Source: an uncultured beta proteobacterium
GTDB lineage: Bacteria > Pseudomonadota > Gammaproteobacteria > Burkholderiales > Burkholderiaceae_C
Direction: 5' to 3'
Assembly (NCBI GenBank): GCA_903951445.1
Contig: CAJBBZ010000010.1
Coordinates: 1 to 60,448 of the forward strand
Length of the DNA stretch: 60,448 bases
A program made the translations under genes and the position numbers. A model generated the notes under the pieces. The model saw only the letters and a list, made by a program, of their open reading frames with translations, did not search any database and had not been told where the DNA came from. This document shows positions 17,649 to 29,769 of this stretch, piece by piece (position 1 is the stretch's first letter; each line of letters begins with the position of its first letter).

Positions 17649-18551
17649 ATGGTCACTACCAGTCCTGCCGACACCGCCGCCAACCAACTGGGCGGCACGC
17701 CTTATGGCACGCTGCCACCGGCATCGCCCATGGCCAGCCGCAAACCCATCAGCCTGCCGCGCATTTTGGAAATGCGCAGCCGGGGCGAAAAAATTACCAT
17801 GCTCACCGCCTACGACGCTACCTTCGCTGCTGTAGCCGATGCCGCTGGGGTGGAATGCATTTTGATAGGCGACTCGCTGGGCATGGTCTGCCAGGGTTTG
17901 CACAGCACCGTGGGCGTGAGCCTGGAAGACATGCGCTACCACACGGCTAGCGTGTCGCGCGGCCTGCGGCGCGCGCAGGGCACGGCCTGGCTGATCGCCG
18001 ACTTGCCTTTTGGTTCTTACCAAGAGTCCAAAGAGCAGGCTTTTCGCAGTGCCTCGGTGCTGATGCAGGCAGGCGCCCACATGATCAAGCTAGAAGGCGG
18101 CGGTTGGACCACCGAGGTGGTGCACTTTTTGGTGGAGCGCGGTATTCCGGTCTGCGCCCACCTGGGCTTGACGCCGCAAACCGTGCACGCCCTGGGCGGC
18201 TACCGGGTGCAGGGCCGTACCGGCGCCGCAGCCGACGTGCTCAAACAACAAGCCCATGCGCTAGAAGACGCAGGCGCGTCCATGTTGGTGCTGGAAATGG
18301 TGCCCGCCGATGTGTCTGCCGACCTCACGCAAGCGCTGCAACACTGCGCCACCATCGGCATAGGCGCGGGCAAAGACACCGCCGGCCAGGTGTTGGTGCT
18401 GCACGATATGCTGGGCGTGAACCTGGGCAAGATGCCTAAGTTTGTGCGCAATTTCATGGCCGATGGCGGCTCCATCCGCGGTGCGATGGAGGCCTATGTG
18501 GCGGCGGTGAAAGACGGCAGCTTCCCGGTCAACGCGCTGCACGCCTGGTAA
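17649..18551 (+). CDS. panB: 3-methyl-2-oxobutanoate hydroxymethyltransferase PanB
   Basis: A 300-residue enzyme making ketopantoate from alpha-ketoisovalerate and methylene-tetrahydrofolate, the first step of pantothenate synthesis. Motifs: [39 protein letters not shown] and [12 protein letters not shown]-like [13 protein letters not shown]. The C-terminal [17 protein letters not shown] is typical. The first 25 residues are a variable extension, so a start further in is possible, but GGAG at 17639 supports ATG 17649. It forms an operon with panC. Confidence 0.96.
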
Positions 18552-18564
18552 GACAAGGGAATTG

Positions 18565-19389
18565 ATGCGTATCGTCAACAGCCTGCCCGCGCTGGCAGAG
18601 GCCCTACAGGCCTACCGGCACCCCTCGGTAGTGCCCACCATGGGCAATTTGCATGAAGGGCACCTGGACCTGGTGCGCAAAGCCAAGCCATTGGGCGACG
18701 TGCAACTGACCACGATTTTTGTCAACCGTTTGCAGTTCGGCCCCAACGAGGATTTCGATACCTACCCGCGTACGTTTGAGGCGGATTGCGCGCAACTTGA
18801 AGCCGCTGGATGCGACCTCTTGTTCGCCCCCACCGAGGCTACGCTCTACCCCGAGCCCCAGGGCTTTAAGGTGACACCGCCTGCCGAGTTAGCCGACGTT
18901 CTTGAAGGCGAGTTTCGCCCCCGTTTTTTTGCCGGGGTCTGCACCGTGGTGCTCAAGCTATTGGCCTGCACGCAGGCGCGCACCGCCGTGTTTGGCAAAA
19001 AAGACTACCAGCAACTGATGGTGATACGTCATATGGTGCGCCAGTTCAATTTGCCGGTGGACATTGTGGGCGTGGACACCCGCCGCGCGCCAGATGGACT
19101 GGCCATGTCCTCGCGCAATGGCTATTTATCAGAGGCCGAGCGGGCCCAAGCGCCGCAATTGCATGCGGCTTTGCAAACGCTGGCCCAGGCGGTGCGTGCG
19201 GGTGGCACCGACTTTGAGGCTATGCAAGCGCAGGCTTTGCATACGCTGGCCGCACAAGGCTGGCAGGCCGACTATGTGGCGCTGCGCCGCCAGGCCGATT
19301 TAGGCGCACCGCAAGCAGGCCAGCCCTTGGTGGTGCTGGCAGCAGCGCGCCTGGGCCGCACACGGCTGATTGACAACCTCGAAATTTAA
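18565..19389 (+). CDS. panC: Pantothenate synthetase PanC
   Basis: A 274-residue ligase joining pantoate and beta-alanine with [20 protein letters not shown] carries the HxGH nucleotide-binding motif. Family positions [19 protein letters not shown] (usually FVNP; here FVNR), [19 protein letters not shown] and MSSRNGYLS follow. ATG at 18565 is preferred over TTG at 18562. It lies 13 bases after panB. There is no panD in the window. Confidence 0.95.
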
Positions 19390-22041: not shown

Positions 22042-22527
22042 TTACAAAAACCGATCCAATATACGCCTGCTGTGCGCATCCAGCGCTTTCTGGTCGGGCA
22101 CCAGGTAGTGAATTCCATGGGCGTCGGCCACCAAAAGGCTGCGGCCGGTGCCGATGCGGCGTATGTCCTCGTCACCACGCAAGACAAACGCGGTGCGGCC
22201 CCGGTCGGTGTCCACCGTCCATGTGCAAGGCGTGGAAAAGCTGCTGACATCCACAATGCGGGCCAGCACCGGCATGAATTCCCGGTGCGCCAATTCGTCC
22301 TCAAGCAGGCTTTGGTAGCTGGCTGGCAAGTCGCTTAAGCGTTCCACCCAAGCCACTTCGTGGCCTTCGGTGCTGATCAAAGAAATGCCCTCTTCGGGTG
22401 CCAGGATGGGAAAGGCGCGCACCGGCACGACGCCGGTAAAGCGCTCACCCTGCGCATTGGTCAGGATCAATTTGCCAAAGGGAGTGCGCTCCAGCACAAA
22501 CGCGTTTTGCTGCCCTGCGTCGCTCAT
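22042..22527 (-). CDS. DUF1854 protein, cyanophycin-locus associated
   Basis: A 161-residue soluble protein of the DUF1854 family. Visible features are an N-terminal FVLERTPFGKLILTNAQGE beta segment, FPILAPEEGISLIS, and YQSLLEDELAHREFMPVLAR. A C-terminal module follows (TPCTWTVDTDRGRTAFVLRG ending with YLVPDQKALDAHSRRILDRF). Similar proteins accompany cyanophycin synthetase genes and an ABC exporter in Burkholderiales. No catalytic motif is evident. Its start overlaps the stop of the ABC gene by four bases (ATGA), so the two are translationally coupled. Confidence 0.82.
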   Translation of the reverse strand: MSDAGQQNAFVLERTPFGKLILTNAQGERFTGVVPVRAFPILAPEEGISLISTEGHEVAWVERLSDLPASYQSLLEDELAHREFMPVLARIVDVSSFSTPCTWTVDTDRGRTAFVLRGDEDIRRIGTGRSLLVADAHGIHYLVPDQKALDAHSRRILDRFL

Positions 22528-24791
22528 ACCGCACCCCCGCTAAGCGCTAATTGCGCATCGGCATTGCGCGCCTGCGCCTGGTACAAATTGAAATACGCGC
22601 CCTCTTGCTGCATCAGCGCGTCATGCGTGCCTTCTTCCACCACGCGGCCCCGGTCCAGCACCACCAATCGGTCGGCGCGGTGCAGCGTGGACAGACGGTG
22701 TGCAATAGCAATCGTGGTGCGGCCTTGCACCAAATTTTCCAGCGCTTTTTGAATCTCTTTTTCGGTTTCCGAATCGACGGAGGAAGTAGCTTCATCCAGA
22801 ATCAAGATGCGCGGATCAATCAGCAAAGCGCGCGCAATCGAGATGCGCTGGCGCTCACCGCCCGAGAGGCCTTGGCCGCGTTCGCCCACCATGGAGTCAT
22901 AGCCATGGGGCAGGCGCAAAATAAATTCGTGCGCATGGGCGGCTCGCGCTGCCGCCATGATGTCGGCGCGGCTGGCATTTGGCTTGCCATAAGCGATGTT
23001 GTCGGCAATCGTGCCGAAGAACAAAAACGGCTCTTGCAATACCAGGCCGATATTGCGACGGAAGTCGCTGATGGCATACGAACGTATGTCCACACCATCG
23101 ACCAAAATTGCGCCCTCGGAGACATCGTAAAAACGGCAAATCAAATTTACCAAAGTGCTTTTTCCCGAACCGCTGTGCCCCACCAAGCCAATCATCTCGC
23201 CCGGCGCGATAGACAAATTGATACCCCGGTTCACCGCCCGGTTGCCATAGCGGAAACCTACTTCGCGCAATTCGATGCGCCCCTGCACCCGGTCCACGCG
23301 CACCGGGTTTTGCGGCTCGGGCACGCTGGAAACATGGTCCAAAATATCAAAAATACGTTTGGCCGCAGAAGCCGATTTTTGCGTCACCGACACAATGCGG
23401 CTCATCGAATCTAAGCGCCCGTAAAAGCGACCAATATAGGCAATGGCCGCCAGCAACATCCCCACCGTGATTTGCCCATGCATTACCTGGTAGATGCCAA
23501 AACCCCAAACCACCAACAAGCCCAGTTCGGTCAGCAAAGACACCGAGGGCGAGAACAGCGACCAAATTTTGTTGATGCGGTCATTGACTTGCAAGTTGTA
23601 GCGGTTGGCATCCCGAAAACGTGCAGCCTCGCGCTGCTCTTGGGCAAAGGCTTTGACCACGCGGATGCCCGGTATGGTGTCAGCCAGCACATTAGTCACC
23701 TCGCCCCAGACCCGGTCAATTTTTTCAAAACCGGTGCGCAGGCGATAGCGCACATAGTGAATCATCCAGCCGATAAAAGGCAGGGGCACCAAGGTAATGA
23801 GCGCCAACCAGGGGTTCATGGAAAACAAGATCACTGCCGTCATGGTGATCATCACCACATCGCTGGCAAAGTCGGTGAGGTGCAGCGACAAATACACCGC
23901 AATCCGGTCGCTCTCGCTGCCCACCCGTGAGAGCAAATCGCCGGTGCGCTTGCCGCCGAAATACTCGAGCGAGAGTTGCAGCAAATGGTCGTAGGTAGTA
24001 GTGCGCAAATCGGCTGCAATGCGCTCAGAAGCCAGCGCCAAAATATAGGTCTTGGCCCAGCTCAGCACCCAGGCCACCAAGCCCGAGGCCAGCAGACCGG
24101 CTAAGTACCAGGCAATTTTGGAGCGCTCGATGTGCTGTCCGTTTTGCAGCGGGATAAGCACCTCATCGACCAGCGGAATCGTCAGGTAGGGCGGCACCTG
24201 GCTGGCTGCGGTGCCCAGCAGCATCAAAACAAAGCCCCAGGCCAATTGCCCGCGATAAGGTCGGGCAAAGCGCCATAAGCGCAGCAGCGTCCAGGTCGAA
24301 GGCGGGGTATGCACCACCTTGGTACAGACCGGACATTCTTCGGCGTCCGGGTCCAGCGGCGCTTTACAGCTTGGGCACAAGGCCTGCGCGGGTACCGGCA
24401 CTGGCACGCCGCTTAATGCGCTGTTATGGTGGGCATTAAATTGGTCCACCAAACGCAAAGCGTATAAATTCTGGCCCAAAGTAAAGCGCCAATGCGCCAG
24501 TTGCCCCTGTTCGTCCTGCAATTGCAGATGGCCCACGCCGGCATGGTCATGGTGCTCCAGGCGCAGGCCGGGGCGGTAATCCCAGCTTTGGGCGCCTGTG
24601 GTTTGCTGGCTGAGCAAGCGCTTGTCTGTGGCCACCAGCACACTGGGCACAAAGCGCATCTGGGCGTCCAGGTCAACCTCCAGCAGCGCACAAACGTTTT
24701 CATGGCTAGCGACTTGCGCTGCCAGTGCATCGCGCCAGGCGGGGGGGATATCCACTGCGCCTAAGGGGCCGGGCGCTTGCTTGTGATTCAT
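22524..24791 (-). CDS. ABC exporter (fused permease-ATPase), cyanophycin-locus associated
   Basis: A 755-residue half-transporter. Residues 1-125 form a soluble N-terminal region with a strand pattern (VLVATDKRLL..., LEHHDHAGVGHLQLQ...) that recalls bacterial PH-like domains. Residues 139-156 are a zinc ribbon, CPSC-x10-CPVC. A six-helix type-1 exporter domain follows (about 170-480), then an ATPase with Walker A GHSGSGKSTLVN, signature LSGGERQRISIARAL and Walker B ILILDEATSSVDSE. The start MNHKQ (24791) is chosen because the upstream residues are not family-like. It is divergent from the cyanophycin synthetases. The substrate is unknown; a role in cyanophycin metabolism is inferred from context only. 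Confidence 0.88.
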   Translation of the reverse strand: MNHKQAPGPLGAVDIPPAWRDALAAQVASHENVCALLEVDLDAQMRFVPSVLVATDKRLLSQQTTGAQSWDYRPGLRLEHHDHAGVGHLQLQDEQGQLAHWRFTLGQNLYALRLVDQFNAHHNSALSGVPVPVPAQALCPSCKAPLDPDAEECPVCTKVVHTPPSTWTLLRLWRFARPYRGQLAWGFVLMLLGTAASQVPPYLTIPLVDEVLIPLQNGQHIERSKIAWYLAGLLASGLVAWVLSWAKTYILALASERIAADLRTTTYDHLLQLSLEYFGGKRTGDLLSRVGSESDRIAVYLSLHLTDFASDVVMITMTAVILFSMNPWLALITLVPLPFIGWMIHYVRYRLRTGFEKIDRVWGEVTNVLADTIPGIRVVKAFAQEQREAARFRDANRYNLQVNDRINKIWSLFSPSVSLLTELGLLVVWGFGIYQVMHGQITVGMLLAAIAYIGRFYGRLDSMSRIVSVTQKSASAAKRIFDILDHVSSVPEPQNPVRVDRVQGRIELREVGFRYGNRAVNRGINLSIAPGEMIGLVGHSGSGKSTLVNLICRFYDVSEGAILVDGVDIRSYAISDFRRNIGLVLQEPFLFFGTIADNIAYGKPNASRADIMAAARAAHAHEFILRLPHGYDSMVGERGQGLSGGERQRISIARALLIDPRILILDEATSSVDSETEKEIQKALENLVQGRTTIAIAHRLSTLHRADRLVVLDRGRVVEEGTHDALMQQEGAYFNLYQAQARNADAQLALSGGAV

Positions 24792-24976
24792 GGAAATGCC
24801 AAATTGAAATATATAAAACTGCCGGTTTCGCGGCCCCCAGGCGGGGCGCACGCCGCGTCCAAACCCCCTACTATGCCTGAGCCTTGGCTAGCACCCCAAG
24901 GGAGCGCAGCGCTATCGGCGAGAATACACAACGCACGACGAACCACCCCGGTGGACTTGAACTTCCGCCCCCACGC
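24792..24976. promoter_or_regulatory. Divergent control region of the cyanophycin locus
   Basis: These 185 bases separate the ABC exporter (minus) and the first cyanophycin synthetase (plus). An AT block (AAATATATAAAA, 24807-24818) is a likely -10 area for the exporter. On the plus side GAGAATACAC (about 24919-24928) is a weaker candidate. I found no clear arginine-repressor (ArgR) box. Confidence 0.4.
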
Positions 24977-27151
24977 ATGACGCGCCAGAAAAAAATCAAT
25001 ATTTTGCGGGTGAACCACCTGCGCGGACCCAATATTTGGACCTACCGGGCAGTGATCGAGGCGTGGGTGGACATTGGGGACTTAGAAGATTTCCCGTCCA
25101 ACACCCTGCCCGGCTTTTACGAACGCCTGACCGGCTACCTGCCCAGCCTGATTGAGCATGAGTGCAGCCCCGGCGTGCGCGGCGGCTTTTTGCAGCGCCT
25201 GCAAGAAGGCACTTGGGCCGCCCATATTCTGGAACACGTTTGCTTGGAACTGCAAAATATGGCCGGTATGCGCACCGGTTTTGGCAAAGCGCGCCAAACC
25301 TCCCAAACCGGTATTTACAAAGTAGCTTTTCGCACCCGGCAAGAGGATGTGGGCCGCCGCGCCCTGCATCTGGGGCGCGATTTGGTAGAGGCCGCCATCC
25401 ACGACACACCTTTTGACGTGGCCAAGGCGGTCGAAGAATTGCACGATATGGTGGACTCGCTCTGCCTGGGTCCGAGCACGGCACATATTGTCGATGCCGC
25501 GACGGCGCGCGGCATACCGCACACGCGCCTGACCGATGGCAACTTGGTGCAACTGGGCTACGGCATTGCACAGCGGCGTATCTGGACTGCCGAGACCGAC
25601 CAGACCAGCGCGATTGCCGAAGAAATTGCCAGCGACAAAGACATGACCAAGCGCATGCTAGAAGCCTGCGGCGTACCGGTGCCCCATGGCCAGGTGGTGC
25701 AAAGCGCCGCGCAGGCCTGGGAAGCGGCGCAGTCCATCGGATTGCCCGTAGCCATCAAACCTTACGACGGCAACCACGGACGCGGCGTGGCCCTGGACCT
25801 GGAAAACCAGGCCGATATCGAAGCGGCCTTTGCCTTAGCGCACCAAGAGGGCGACGGCCAAGTGATAGTGGAAGAATTTATCCGGGGCAATGAACACCGC
25901 CTGCTGGTGGTAGGCCGCCAGGTGGTGGCCGCAGCGCGCGGCACCACGCTGTATGTGCAAGGCGACGGTATCTCCACCATGAACCAGTTGGTGGACCAGC
26001 AAATCAATAGCGACCCACGCCGTGGGCGCGCCGAGTCCTTCCCCTTGAACGTGGTTGATTTGTCGGAAAGCCCGGAAGTCTTGCTCGAACTCGAGCGCAT
26101 TGGCCTGGCGCCGCAGTCGGTGCCCGCCGCCGGACAAAAAGTGCTGATCCAGCGCAATGGAAATGTGGCGTTTGATGTCACCAGCGAGCTGCACCCCAGC
26201 GTAGCGCGGGCCGCCGCACTGGCCGCGCGCGTGGTGGGCTTGGATATTGCCGGTGTGGACATGGTGCTCGAAAACTGTGCCCTGCCGCTAGAGGGGCAGC
26301 GCGGCGCGGTCATTGAGGTCAACGCCAGCCCCGGCCTCTTGGCCCATATCAAACCGGCTAACGGCACCGGCCAGCCGGTGGGCACGGCCATCATCAGCCA
26401 TTTGTTTGACAGCAAGCAAGACGGCCGCATTCCCATCGTGGGCATCACCGGCACGCACAACACCGGCCGCATGGCGCGCTTAGTAGCTTGGTTGGTGCAT
26501 ATCAGCGGCAAACATGTAGGCCTGGCCTGTAGCGAAGGTTTGTACCTGGACAGCCGCCGGGTGGACGCCGCCGACAGCAGCACCTGGGATGCAGGACAGC
26601 GTATTTTGATGAACCGTTCGGTGCAGGCCGCGGTATTTGAAAACCCCTGCACCACGATTTTGGGCCAAGGCCTGGCGTACGATAAATGCCAGGTCGGTGT
26701 CGTCACCGATGTCACCTGGCACGAAGGCCTGCGCGACTTCGACATCCTGGACGCAGAGCAAAACTTCAAGGTCGCGCGCACCCAGGTCGATGTGGTGCTG
26801 CCCAGCGGCACGGCGGTGATCAACGCCATGGACACGCAGGCGGTGGAGCTGGCCGAACTTTGTGATGGCCGCGTTATCTTCTACGCGCTGTCGCCCGAAC
26901 ACCCCACGCTGCTGGCGCACCGCGCGCAAGGCCATCAAGTGGTTTGCGTGCGCGAGGGCCATATGGTGCTGGCCCACGGCGCGCAGGAAAGGCCTTTGCT
27001 GCGGCTCGATAGCTTAAAGCCCGCCAAGGCGGGGCAACCCGAGATGGTCATGGCCGCAGTGGCCGCCGCCTGGGCCCTGGACATCACACCGGAATTGATT
27101 GCTGCGGGTTTGCGCACCTTCGAGTCCAACCCGCAAAAAACGCCTTACTAG
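24977..27151 (+). CDS. Cyanophycin synthetase paralogue (CphA'/CphA2-like), degenerate Mur domain
   Basis: A 724-residue relative of CphA, which builds the Asp-Arg polymer cyanophycin. The N domain contains EGTWAAHILEH, an HxxEH motif (His83, Glu86, His87). The central ATP-grasp domain looks intact (AIKPYDGNHGRGVALDLEN, VIEEF-like VIVEEFIRGNEHRLL, VIEVNASPGLLAH). The Mur-ligase-like domain is degenerate: the P-loop reads GTHNTGRMA (residues 492-500) instead of GTNGKTT, ETARGG is ENPCTT, and the C-terminal lobe is missing (the protein ends at ESNPQKTPY). It should still ligate one amino acid or a dipeptide through ATP-grasp but not the second. ATG at 24977 is chosen by homology. cphA follows 47 bases later. 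Confidence 0.9.
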   Translation: MTRQKKINILRVNHLRGPNIWTYRAVIEAWVDIGDLEDFPSNTLPGFYERLTGYLPSLIEHECSPGVRGGFLQRLQEGTWAAHILEHVCLELQNMAGMRTGFGKARQTSQTGIYKVAFRTRQEDVGRRALHLGRDLVEAAIHDTPFDVAKAVEELHDMVDSLCLGPSTAHIVDAATARGIPHTRLTDGNLVQLGYGIAQRRIWTAETDQTSAIAEEIASDKDMTKRMLEACGVPVPHGQVVQSAAQAWEAAQSIGLPVAIKPYDGNHGRGVALDLENQADIEAAFALAHQEGDGQVIVEEFIRGNEHRLLVVGRQVVAAARGTTLYVQGDGISTMNQLVDQQINSDPRRGRAESFPLNVVDLSESPEVLLELERIGLAPQSVPAAGQKVLIQRNGNVAFDVTSELHPSVARAAALAARVVGLDIAGVDMVLENCALPLEGQRGAVIEVNASPGLLAHIKPANGTGQPVGTAIISHLFDSKQDGRIPIVGITGTHNTGRMARLVAWLVHISGKHVGLACSEGLYLDSRRVDAADSSTWDAGQRILMNRSVQAAVFENPCTTILGQGLAYDKCQVGVVTDVTWHEGLRDFDILDAEQNFKVARTQVDVVLPSGTAVINAMDTQAVELAELCDGRVIFYALSPEHPTLLAHRAQGHQVVCVREGHMVLAHGAQERPLLRLDSLKPAKAGQPEMVMAAVAAAWALDITPELIAAGLRTFESNPQKTPY

Positions 27152-27198
27152 CGCCCTCCACTTAACGCACACGCCGAGCTGCCTCACGGACCACACCC

Positions 27199-29769
27199 AT
27201 GGAAGTCACCCGCATTCGCGCCTTGCGCGGCCCCAATCTCTGGAGCCACCACACCGCTATCCAAGCGGTTGTTATCTGCACGCCCAAGGAGTGGGCTATA
27301 GCAGACCTGCATGGCTTTGAAACCCGGCTGCGTGCGCGCTTTCCTGAAATCAGTTCCTTTCAGCCCACCGGCCACGAAGACACCGTGCCGCTGGCGCGCG
27401 TGCTGGAATTGGCCACACTGGGCTTGCAAGCGCAAGCCGGTTGCCCGGTCACGTTTAGCTGCACCAAACCGACCCTGGAGGCCGGTGTGTTTCAGGTGGT
27501 GGTGGAGTACAGCGAAGAAGCCGTAGGGCGTCTGGCGTTGGAGCTGGCACAAAGTCTGTGCCAATCAGCCCTGGACGACACCCTATTTGACCTAGCCAGC
27601 GTGCTGCACCAATTACGCGAACTCGACGAAGACGTGCGCCTGGGGCCCAGCACCGGCTCGGTCGTGAACGCTGCACTGGCGCGCAATATCCCCTACAGCC
27701 GCATGACGGATGGCAGCATGGTGCGCTTTGGCTGGGGCAGCAAGCAAAGACGCATTCAAGCGGCAGAAATCGACGCCACCAGCGCGATTGCCGAAGCCAT
27801 CGCCCAAGACAAAGAACTGAGCAAGCGCTTGCTGCATGCCGCAGGCGTACCAGTGCCGCGCGGCCGCGCGGTGCGCGATGCGGATGACGCCTGGGCAGCG
27901 GCGCAAGACATTGGCCTGCCGGTGGTAGTCAAGCCCCTGGATGGCAACCAGGGCAAGGGCGTGACAGTCAACATCCTGAATGAAGCCCAATTGCGCGCCG
28001 CCTATGCGGTAGCCATCGAATTTCGCGACACGGTGTTGGTGGAACGCTATATGCCGGGCAACGACTTTCGCCTGCTGGTGGTAGGCGACAAACTGGTGGC
28101 CGCTGCGCGGCGCGATCCGCCCAAAGTGGTGGGTGACGGCGTGCATACCGTGGCGCAGTTGGTGGACATGGTCAATGCCGATCCGCGCCGGGGCGATGGA
28201 CATGCCACCTCGCTCACCAAAATCCGCTTTGACGATATTGCCCGCAGTTGCTTGCGCAGCCAGGGTTTTGAGGCAGACTCGATTCCGGACAAAGGCCAAC
28301 GCGTGAATTTGCGTAACAACGCCAATTTGTCCACCGGCGGCTCTGCCACCGACGTGACCGATGACGTACACCCGGACGTGGCAGCAAGGGCGGTTACAGC
28401 GGCGCACATGGTGGGCTTGCATATTTGCGGCGTAGACCTGGTGTGCGACAGCATATTGCGGCCGATTGAAGAACAAGGCGGGGGCGTGGTGGAAGTCAAT
28501 GCCGCGCCGGGCTTGCGCATGCACCTCAGCCCCTCTTTTGGCAAGGGCCGGCCGGTGGGCGAAGCCATCATGTCCAGCCTGTTTAAAAACGGGCAAGATG
28601 GCCGCATCCCCATCGTCGCTGTCACCGGCACCAATGGCAAAACCACGACCGTGCGCCTGATTTCGCACCTGCTGGCCCAGCAAGGCTGGTGCGTGGGCAT
28701 GACCAATACCGATGGTGTGTATGTGGATGGCCACTGCATTGATACCGGCGACTGCAGCGGCCCCAAGAGTGCGAAAAACGTCTTGCACCATCCTGATGTG
28801 GATGCGGCAGTGCTGGAGACAGCGCGCGGCGGTATCTTGCGCGAGGGCCTGGCCTTTGACAAATGCGATGTGGCCGTGGTGACCAATGTGGGCAGCGGCG
28901 ACCATCTGGGCTTGAACTACATCACCACCGTCGATGAACTGGCGGTGCTCAAACGCGTGATTGTGCAAAACGTAGCGCCCAAGGGCACAGCGGTGCTCAA
29001 TGCCGCCGATCCGGTGGTAGCCACTATGGCTGCCAAAACCAAAGGCGCGGTCACCTTTTTTGCACTGGACCAGTTCCACCCGGTGATGGCCACACACCGC
29101 GCGCAAGGCCATGCGGTGGTGTATGTGGACCAAGGCCAAATGGTGGCAGCCAAGGGCGCGGAAAAACATTACCTGAACCTGAGCGACATTCCGGTCACGC
29201 TGGGTGGCGCGATTGGCTTTCAAGTAGAAAACGTCATGGCCAGCGTCGCAGCTGTGTGGGCCTTGGGTCTGGACTGGGACACCCTGCGTGCGGGCCTGGC
29301 CAGTTTTTCCAGCGAAAACGACAATGCGCAGGGCCGCTTCAATGTTTTCAACTACAAGGGCGCCACCGTCATTGCCGACTACGGCCACAACCCGGACGCC
29401 ATGGCCGCACTGGTGCAAGCGGTGCAAGCCATGCCGGCGAGCCGACGCTCGGTGGTGATCAGCGGGCCGGGAGACCGGCGCGACGAGGACATCCGCCAAA
29501 TCACCCAGATTTTGGGCGATGCGTTTGAAGAAGTGGTGATGTACGAAGACCAGTGCCAGCGCGGCCGCTCCGATGGCGAGGTCATGGCTTTGCTGCGCGA
29601 GGGCTTGGTCGGCGCGAAAAAGGCGACGCAACGCAGCGAAATCTATGGCGAATTTTTAGCCATTGACACGGCGCTGTCGCACTTGCAAGCCGGCGAATTG
29701 TGCTTAGTGCTGGTGGACCAGGTGCCCGAGGCCATGGCGCATATAGAAGCGCGCATTAAGACTTTGTAG
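27199..29769 (+). CDS. cphA: Cyanophycin synthetase CphA
   Basis: An 856-residue synthetase that extends the poly-aspartate backbone and attaches arginine side chains, using one ATP per bond. The ATP-grasp part (VVKPLDGNQGKGVTVN, VVEVNAAPGLRMH) and the Mur-ligase part (P-loop GTNGKTTTVRL with Lys481, ETARGGILREGLAFDKCD, NVGSGDHLGL, and the lobe with IADYGHNPDAMAAL and SGPGDRRDEDI) are complete. The N domain lacks the HxxEH motif: the aligned segment reads ARVLEL, with Arg67 and Leu71 in place of the two histidines. It is cotranscribed with the upstream paralogue. No cyanophycinase gene was found in the window. Confidence 0.96.
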   Translation: MEVTRIRALRGPNLWSHHTAIQAVVICTPKEWAIADLHGFETRLRARFPEISSFQPTGHEDTVPLARVLELATLGLQAQAGCPVTFSCTKPTLEAGVFQVVVEYSEEAVGRLALELAQSLCQSALDDTLFDLASVLHQLRELDEDVRLGPSTGSVVNAALARNIPYSRMTDGSMVRFGWGSKQRRIQAAEIDATSAIAEAIAQDKELSKRLLHAAGVPVPRGRAVRDADDAWAAAQDIGLPVVVKPLDGNQGKGVTVNILNEAQLRAAYAVAIEFRDTVLVERYMPGNDFRLLVVGDKLVAAARRDPPKVVGDGVHTVAQLVDMVNADPRRGDGHATSLTKIRFDDIARSCLRSQGFEADSIPDKGQRVNLRNNANLSTGGSATDVTDDVHPDVAARAVTAAHMVGLHICGVDLVCDSILRPIEEQGGGVVEVNAAPGLRMHLSPSFGKGRPVGEAIMSSLFKNGQDGRIPIVAVTGTNGKTTTVRLISHLLAQQGWCVGMTNTDGVYVDGHCIDTGDCSGPKSAKNVLHHPDVDAAVLETARGGILREGLAFDKCDVAVVTNVGSGDHLGLNYITTVDELAVLKRVIVQNVAPKGTAVLNAADPVVATMAAKTKGAVTFFALDQFHPVMATHRAQGHAVVYVDQGQMVAAKGAEKHYLNLSDIPVTLGGAIGFQVENVMASVAAVWALGLDWDTLRAGLASFSSENDNAQGRFNVFNYKGATVIADYGHNPDAMAALVQAVQAMPASRRSVVISGPGDRRDEDIRQITQILGDAFEEVVMYEDQCQRGRSDGEVMALLREGLVGAKKATQRSEIYGEFLAIDTALSHLQAGELCLVLVDQVPEAMAHIEARIKTL

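Follow-up and report, generated by a model that had tools for sequence, protein, structure and literature searches.

Why two proteins of the cyanophycin synthetase family should be encoded side by side, and what each would contribute to making the polymer, is the question raised by the window analysed here, a stretch of 60,448 nucleotides from an uncultured beta proteobacterium (contig CAJBBZ010000010.1, assembly GCA_903951445.1). The current three-site model, with an N-domain metallopeptidase site, an aspartate-adding ATP-grasp G domain, and an arginine-adding Mur-like M domain, derives from single-gene enzymes such as SuCphA1 and TeCphA1. The roles of the N-site residues were taken from the available text of PMC9262961, according to which this site is endo-acting and several-fold slower than polymerisation; its motif, Cx19HxxEH, occurs in 83% of nr70 CphA1 and is therefore not strictly defining. 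For the G domain, the accessible part of PMC9427784 assigns aspartate binding to R323, N394, S396, and R458, with further roles for H267 and R309; TeCphA1 was impaired by alanine at either R323 or R458, and the S396W change left SuCphA1 inactive. The pair in the window resembles these enzymes in domain order, in fold, and in possessing all three sites when both genes are summed. The sites of CphA1, however, lie in one chain, whereas those of the pair are divided between two, as judged by their residues. The features of the locus are collected in Table 1, and residues are given below in TeCphA1 numbering unless a protein is named.

Table 1. Features of the cyanophycin synthetase locus, in window positions.
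Feature	Position	Strand	Remarks
DUF1854 protein, cyanophycin metabolism-associated (NF052234, PF08909)	22042..22527	-	profile matches
ABC exporter, cyanophycin metabolism-associated (NF052233), divergent	22524..24791	-	1365 bits, cut-off 880
Intergenic stretch, divergent ABC gene / cphA'	24792..24976	.	
CphA' gene (P0001, 724 aa)	24977..27151	+	N+ G- M- member of cyanophycin synthetase family
N-domain metallopeptidase site of CphA' (predicted): H61, C63, R74, H83, E86, H87	25157..25237 (HILEH 25223-25237)	+	six residues kept in 136/136 CphA'
Lost G-domain aspartate pocket of CphA'	25940..26341	+	G322 for R323, S396 loop deleted after V397, L455 for R458
Degenerate Mur-type P-loop GTHNTGRMA of CphA'	26450..26476	+	
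CphA gene (P0002, 856 aa)	27199..29769	+	N- G+ M+ cyanophycin synthetase
Lost N-site helix motif RVLEL of CphA	27397..27411	+	TeCphA1 loop 65-74 deleted just ahead
Kept G-domain aspartate loop NLSTGG (N376, S378) and R440 (= R458) of CphA	28324..28518	+	
Kept M-domain site of CphA, P-loop GTNGKTT (28627-28647) to D568/H569	28627..28905	+	

The first protein, P0001 (CphA'), carries the HxxEH motif that the initial annotation had read in it (HILEH; His83, Glu86, and His87 in the translation), and all six N-site residues of TeCphA1 (H57, C59, R70, H79, E82, and H83) are present, so that P0001 is predicted to cleave cyanophycin into primers. The Pfam N domain was detected in both proteins, at 130.7 bits in P0001 and 36.6 bits in P0002. 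The degenerate Mur motifs described earlier were also found in the translation, with GTHNTGRMA for GTNGKTT and ENPCTT for ETARGG; the M site reads H N T G where N G K T is expected, and E G in place of D H. The C-terminal lobe is missing as described, the match to TeCphA1 stopping at TeCphA1 residue 729, and the Mur lid is therefore absent. A further loss, which the initial annotation did not contain, affects the aspartate pocket (R323G, S396 deleted, R458L), while P0001 retains the residues for ATP, Mg, and acyl-phosphate in the same domain (K221, K261, H267, R308, D428, and E447). On its residues, P0001 thus lacks both the aspartate-adding G site and the arginine-adding M site that characterise CphA1; its score against the equivalog TIGR02068 is below the cut-off (698.7 against 850 bits), and it passes the subfamily model NF010623 (998.9 against 877 bits). 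W203 and T204 of P0001 (25583-25588), equivalent to W202 and T203, are invariant in the 136 CphA' of the survey described below and are Q/A in most other CphAs.

The second protein, P0002 (CphA), begins 47 bases downstream and shows the opposite pattern. GTNGKTT, ETARGG, and a complete C-terminal lobe were confirmed (Pfam Mur_ligase_M and Mur_ligase_C), as was RVLEL at the HxxEH position. The six N-site positions read F54, P56, no equivalent of R70, R67, E70, and L71, without the Cx19HxxEH motif; the loss of H57, C59, R70, and the 65-74 loop had been overlooked, and it is more constant among partner proteins than the loss of HxxEH. In the ATP-grasp G domain, the aspartate-binding N394, S396, R323, and R458 are present together with R309, and the M domain has its P-loop, DH, and the lid residues R731 and H748. 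Both NF010623 and the equivalog TIGR02068 are passed. All G and M residues checked are kept except for Q251 in place of H267 and K253 in place of R269. These two substitutions were considered as a second loss and rejected, Q267 occurring in 7 of 48 three-site CphAs. The AlphaFold2 model of P0002 has a mean pLDDT of 85.1, with residues 56-60 under 50.

The generality of this pattern was assessed in a survey of related loci. Within the window's genus, the N-domain family was found in 60 of 61 genomes, and 56 of these 60 had a strong and a weak copy; the four one-copy genomes are draft assemblies in 360 to 980 contigs. In a sample of the order, 93 of 250 genomes matched the N-domain family, 86 with at least two matches and seven with one. 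The window and 91 of the 92 other genomes were taken in, the one left out being G232, whose two matches lie on different contigs, and named relatives, loci of other proteobacteria, and loci of the phylum of L114 were added. The alignment comprised 338 CphA sequences including TeCphA1, of which 319 with at least 280 G-domain columns were scored; the 19 that were dropped include CphA' from L090 and from L219, as well as the incomplete partner in L203, with its Cys at position 59. As the N, G, and M classes are defined by the residues themselves, the non-circular results are the combinations that occur, the gene order, and the clades.

Only three combinations were obtained: 136 proteins were N+ G-, 135 were N- G+ (126 of them M+ and nine scored M- that are cut or broken, seven by reaching a contig end and two, L104 and L162, with broken frames), and 48 were N+ G+ M+. 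Each of the 136 G- proteins is N+, and every scored G+ neighbour of these is N-; no N- G- protein was seen among the 319 scored, and no N+ G+ protein inside a pair locus. The two genes lie on the same strand with CphA' first in 129/129 loci where both are present (the frame of the L106 partner is open upstream), while six N+ G- loci without a scored partner (L062, L197, L176, L101, L191, and L203) are short stretches or contig ends or, in L203, hold the incomplete partner mentioned above. The partner class was taken as 132 N- G+ proteins, with the two proteins of L211 and that of L114, all N- G+ M+, excluded. The six N-site residues are kept in 136/136 CphA', and H57, C59, and R70 are each kept in 0/132 partners, of which three (L167, L169, and L190) still have HxxEH. 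Conversely, R323, S396, and R458 are kept in 132/132 partners, in 48/48 three-site CphAs, and in 0/136 CphA'; N394 is likewise kept in 132/132 partners. Because the same split recurs in the orthologous pairs scored, the division of the predicted active sites between the two proteins is not a matter of chance.

The initial annotation had raised the question whether the losses of HxxEH and of the P-loop always go together as a pair. They do not: the N-site loss of the partner tracks the loss of the G-domain aspartate site; the M site is intact in 10/136 CphA' under a looser rule (8/136 under a stricter one), and GK[TS] is retained in 30/136. At the level of residues, the invariant split is that between the N site and the G-domain aspartate site, and the loss of the P-loop is secondary. 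The N site is also lost outside such pairs, in L114, in both genes of L211, and in TmCphA1 (available text of PMC9262961), the last possibly a case of the same kind; N-site loss is therefore not diagnostic on its own.

A loss of aspartate binding need not mean that the G domain of CphA' is idle. It could instead be an active ligase of changed substrate, joining the ATP-activated C-terminus of cyanophycin to a substrate that is not aspartate. Nearly all CphA' retain the residues for ATP, Mg, and acyl-phosphate (K220, K261, R309, and D431 in 136/136, H267 in 133, and E450 in 135), the aspartate pocket has been replaced by a consistent new set of residues (G323 in 134, the loop deletion in 136, L458 in 132, W202 and T203 in 136 each, E307 in 133, and E353 in 126), and the dN/dS of the G domain is almost as low as that of the N domain. 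Two CphA' from outside the order, however, have altered ATP-site residues while keeping the N site and the gene pair, namely L217 (H267L and E450A) and L219 (K220R, H267A, and D431A; a short protein with an uncertain alignment there), which counts for a protein whose task is cutting. The signature of CphA2, the cyanobacterial beta-Asp-Arg polymerase to which the initial annotation had likened the first protein, is also absent from CphA'. The two do share a shortened M domain without an ATP site, but the two CphA2 proteins read (L277 and L280, from the 2/9 CphA2 loci that were usable) keep R323, N394, and S396, with F at R458, and the accessible part of PMC9262961 describes CphA2 as lacking the N motif; CphA' is the reverse, and the assignment of CphA' as a CphA2 was rejected. 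On balance, a changed ligase seems unlikely, although the kept ATP residues and the invariant W202 and T203 are more than a pure cutter needs and count against a purely proteolytic role.

With its G and M sites degenerate, CphA' might alternatively be a pseudoenzyme that regulates or scaffolds CphA, its N site being a structural zinc site. The predicted structure of P0001, in which a high-confidence fold persists through the dead M core, would suit such a role. The six N-site residues, however, include E82 in 136/136 CphA', as in three-site CphAs, and a purely structural zinc site is disfavoured because E82 would not be needed there. This reading appears very unlikely. The dN/dS values were calculated by the Nei-Gojobori method at high dS with gapped columns ignored, so that only their ranking was used. 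Across 3,733 comparisons, the M core of CphA' ranked at about twice its own N and G domains and the M core of the partner. The N domains differed little, at 0.258 for the partner and 0.244 for CphA', the latter being lower in 2,109 of the 3,733, and the partner's N domain is thus not more relaxed than that of CphA', which counts against the explanation preferred below. Within the window's genus (eight comparisons), the values for CphA' were 0.083 for the M core, 0.071 for the N domain, and 0.056 for the G domain.

The genes around the pair and the complement of degradative enzymes were also compared. The divergent ABC exporter and DUF1854 genes, which the initial annotation did not mention, are part of the locus. 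Their label "cyanophycin metabolism-associated" is NCBIfam naming, and the longest open reading frame of the ABC gene extends to 24851. Its product has an N-terminal extension ahead of the exporter domains, with no Pfam match and a CxxC-CxxC zinc-ribbon-like stretch. Genomes with single-gene CphA1 that were tested carry cyanophycinase, whereas the pair mostly has the ABC and DUF1854 genes instead. Among loci whose upstream flank measured 2.4 kb or more (125 pair loci and 17 single loci, 30 of 47 single loci being too short), an ABC homologue (N-terminal part) was found in 117/125 pair loci and DUF1854 in 116/125, against 1/17 single loci for each, both being L242. A strong cyanophycinase match (TIGR02069, at least 200 bits) was present in one of the 88 pair genomes (86 from the order sample and two from outside it, the latter 0/2) and in 30 of 31 single-CphA genomes tested; the exception, G116, has its match beside a second, different, and unusual cphA locus. 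Within the order, the same threshold gave 7/7 single-CphA against 1/86 pair genomes, and the curated cut-off gave 7/7 single-CphA genomes, 5/86 pair genomes, and 5/157 genomes without a CphA match. Outside the order, cyanophycinase was found in 12/13 single-CphA proteobacteria, the miss being the genome of L242, and in 11/11 genomes chosen from 63 matching in the phylum of L114. All of these contrasts represent few independent events, as the pairs descend from one lineage. In the window's own genome (99.3% complete), no match over the cut-off was found for cyanophycinase (best 25.7 bits) or TIGR01975 (best 23.7 bits), and none for PF01112.

These results could indicate that CphA' is mainly the missing depolymerase, an endo-cyanophycinase mobilising the polymer without CphB, with primers as a by-product. 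Besides the 1/88 against 30/31 contrast and the searches of the window's genome, the available text of PMC10206079 reports cyanophycinase in 2.8% of 903 beta-proteobacterial CphA1 genomes, in keeping with such a role. Set against it are the slow, endo-acting character of the N site noted above, the further enzymes that dipeptide release would need and that were not found in the genome searches, the 5/86 pair genomes matching cyanophycinase at the curated cut-off, the descent of the pairs from one lineage, and Tetrasphaera, in which two cphA copies occur together with cphB (accessible part of PMC10687191). We regard a mainly depolymerising CphA' as possible, if somewhat improbable. In another arrangement nothing would be stored: CphA would build an Asp-Arg chain, CphA' would cut it into oligomers, and the ABC exporter with DUF1854 would export these. 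The absence of cyanophycinase and dipeptidases would thereby be accounted for and, if this is true, the product of the Burkholderiales locus would be an exported isopeptide of a new class. Cyanophycin has been found in Bordetella species, according to the part of review PMC8560796 available, which counts against this arrangement. Export is considered decidedly doubtful.

The preferred explanation is that the first protein is probably an endo-cyanophycinase dedicated to primer making or trimming, which serves the second protein, a primer-dependent synthetase, possibly within a mixed oligomer. An ancestral three-site cyanophycin synthetase would have been duplicated and its sites divided between the copies. 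CphA' would have retained the zinc-endopeptidase site, by which cyanophycin is cut into primers, but not aspartate addition (nor, in P0001, arginine addition), while CphA would have given up the cutting site and retained the two ligase sites. Alone, CphA should then be primer-dependent, as is TmCphA1, which, like P0002, is without the N-site residues in the available text of PMC9262961. CphA' would likely supply primers in trans, and perhaps all endo-cleavage of the polymer. The initial proposal that primer formation and full synthesis are divided between the two proteins thus fits the pairs examined, with the division drawn between the N and G sites rather than at the P-loop and the CphA2 analogy abandoned. 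Counted against it, together with the points above, are the 3/132 partners with HxxEH, the small M-core excess within the genus, and a Nat Commun result (accessible part of PMC9262961) that, when no primer was supplied, dimers whose N site lay in the opposite protomer were somewhat less active than those with all sites in one.

A mixed CphA'/CphA oligomer is plausible, in which CphA' would probably be held by way of the G domain, which is conserved, and the M core, which is still folded. The tandem order and the even expression of both cphA copies in Accumulibacter (accessible part of PMC10687191) are compatible with such a heteromer. E215, which each TeCphA1 protomer contributes in trans to its neighbour, is kept in P0001 and replaced by Ala in P0002; as evidence for a heteromer it was rejected, the position being variable (E in 20/136 CphA' and different in 13/48 three-site CphAs). 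The W672 contact, mutation of which makes SuCphA1 dimeric, was equally uninformative, as the position is conserved in neither paralogue and is W in 18/48 three-site CphAs.

Common descent of the pairs was examined in trees. In the G-domain tree, CphA' forms one clade of 136 tips (support 1.0), and a 50-taxon tree of the G domain groups CphA', CphA, and L242 with UFBoot 100, beside single CphAs that share Q267/K269. Support for the partner clade varied, from 0.10 without L242 in the 319-tip tree (0.56 for CphA', partner, and L242 together) to 0.93 in the 50-taxon FastTree; the IQ-TREE UFBoot values were 100 for partners, 82 for partners with L242, and 61 for CphA', although these labels may have moved on re-rooting. 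Dollo parsimony gave 16 losses of M on the G tree, a count that was not used, as Fitch parsimony places M- at the root of CphA', and gene conversion restoring M in M+ CphA' was unsupported, their M identity to their own partner being 0.40-0.49. L242, an N+ G+ M+ CphA at the CphA' position beside ABC and DUF1854 genes, looks like a candidate for the unsplit state. Its placement conflicts, the G domain grouping with CphA and the M-domain tree placing it beside CphA' (0.86). It is a candidate rather than proof because it is the one N-domain match in a genome listed at 93% completeness and 8% contamination, on a contig that ends inside the gene.

The tandem arrangement, the neighbouring ABC gene, and the absence of cphB have been published before. 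The accessible parts of these reports describe tandem cphA genes ('CphA1/CphA2') without cyanophycinase in Sideroxydans (PMC5178258) and a 'Group 1' in which cphA is present twice together with an ABC transporter and flanking insertion sequences, while cphB is missing (PMC10687191), the latter leaving open what replaces cphB; cyanophycin genes in Achromobacter are reported without cphA details (PMC12509546). The beta-proteobacterial tandems are the same locus type as here, with no division of active sites mentioned in the text available, and no mention of a division of N site and ligase sites between two proteins was found in the openly licensed PubMed Central papers searched. The present analysis defines this division and counts it across pairs. 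As 903 of 1,614 genomes with CphA1 are beta-proteobacterial (available text of PMC10206079) and 86 of 93 order matches have at least two copies, cyanophycin synthetase may occur most often in this two-gene form among the genomes sequenced.

If the primer-making reading is right, some seemingly primer-dependent enzymes would be primed in trans by a neighbour, the lack of cyanophycinase in these bacteria, so far unexplained, would have a candidate explanation, and one gene expressed alone would be expected to yield little polymer. Against this reading stands a 2013 study of the R. eutropha H16 cphA pair, which we take to be the same locus type, in which neither gene reportedly gave isolable cyanophycin. 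The N/G/M split is also a clean natural case of one enzyme's sites divided between duplicates, with L242 as a possible unsplit relative.

Several further arrangements were noted in the survey. In L211 (10 kb, genome G116), a second CphA pair lies head-to-head, both members without the N motif and with G and M intact, adjoining the strong cyanophycinase match. The CphA of L114, from a cyanobacterial MAG with one N-domain match, reads NLSDQY at the six N positions; its G and M sites are intact. A Mur-ligase-like open reading frame of about 560-620 aa with a P-loop and DH, without N or G domain, immediately follows the three-site CphA genes in L166, L174, L175, L201, L215, L216, L218, and L243-L246. 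Elsewhere in the window, panB and panC (ketopantoate hydroxymethyltransferase and pantoate-beta-alanine ligase) lie adjacent at 17649-19389, an ordinary arrangement.
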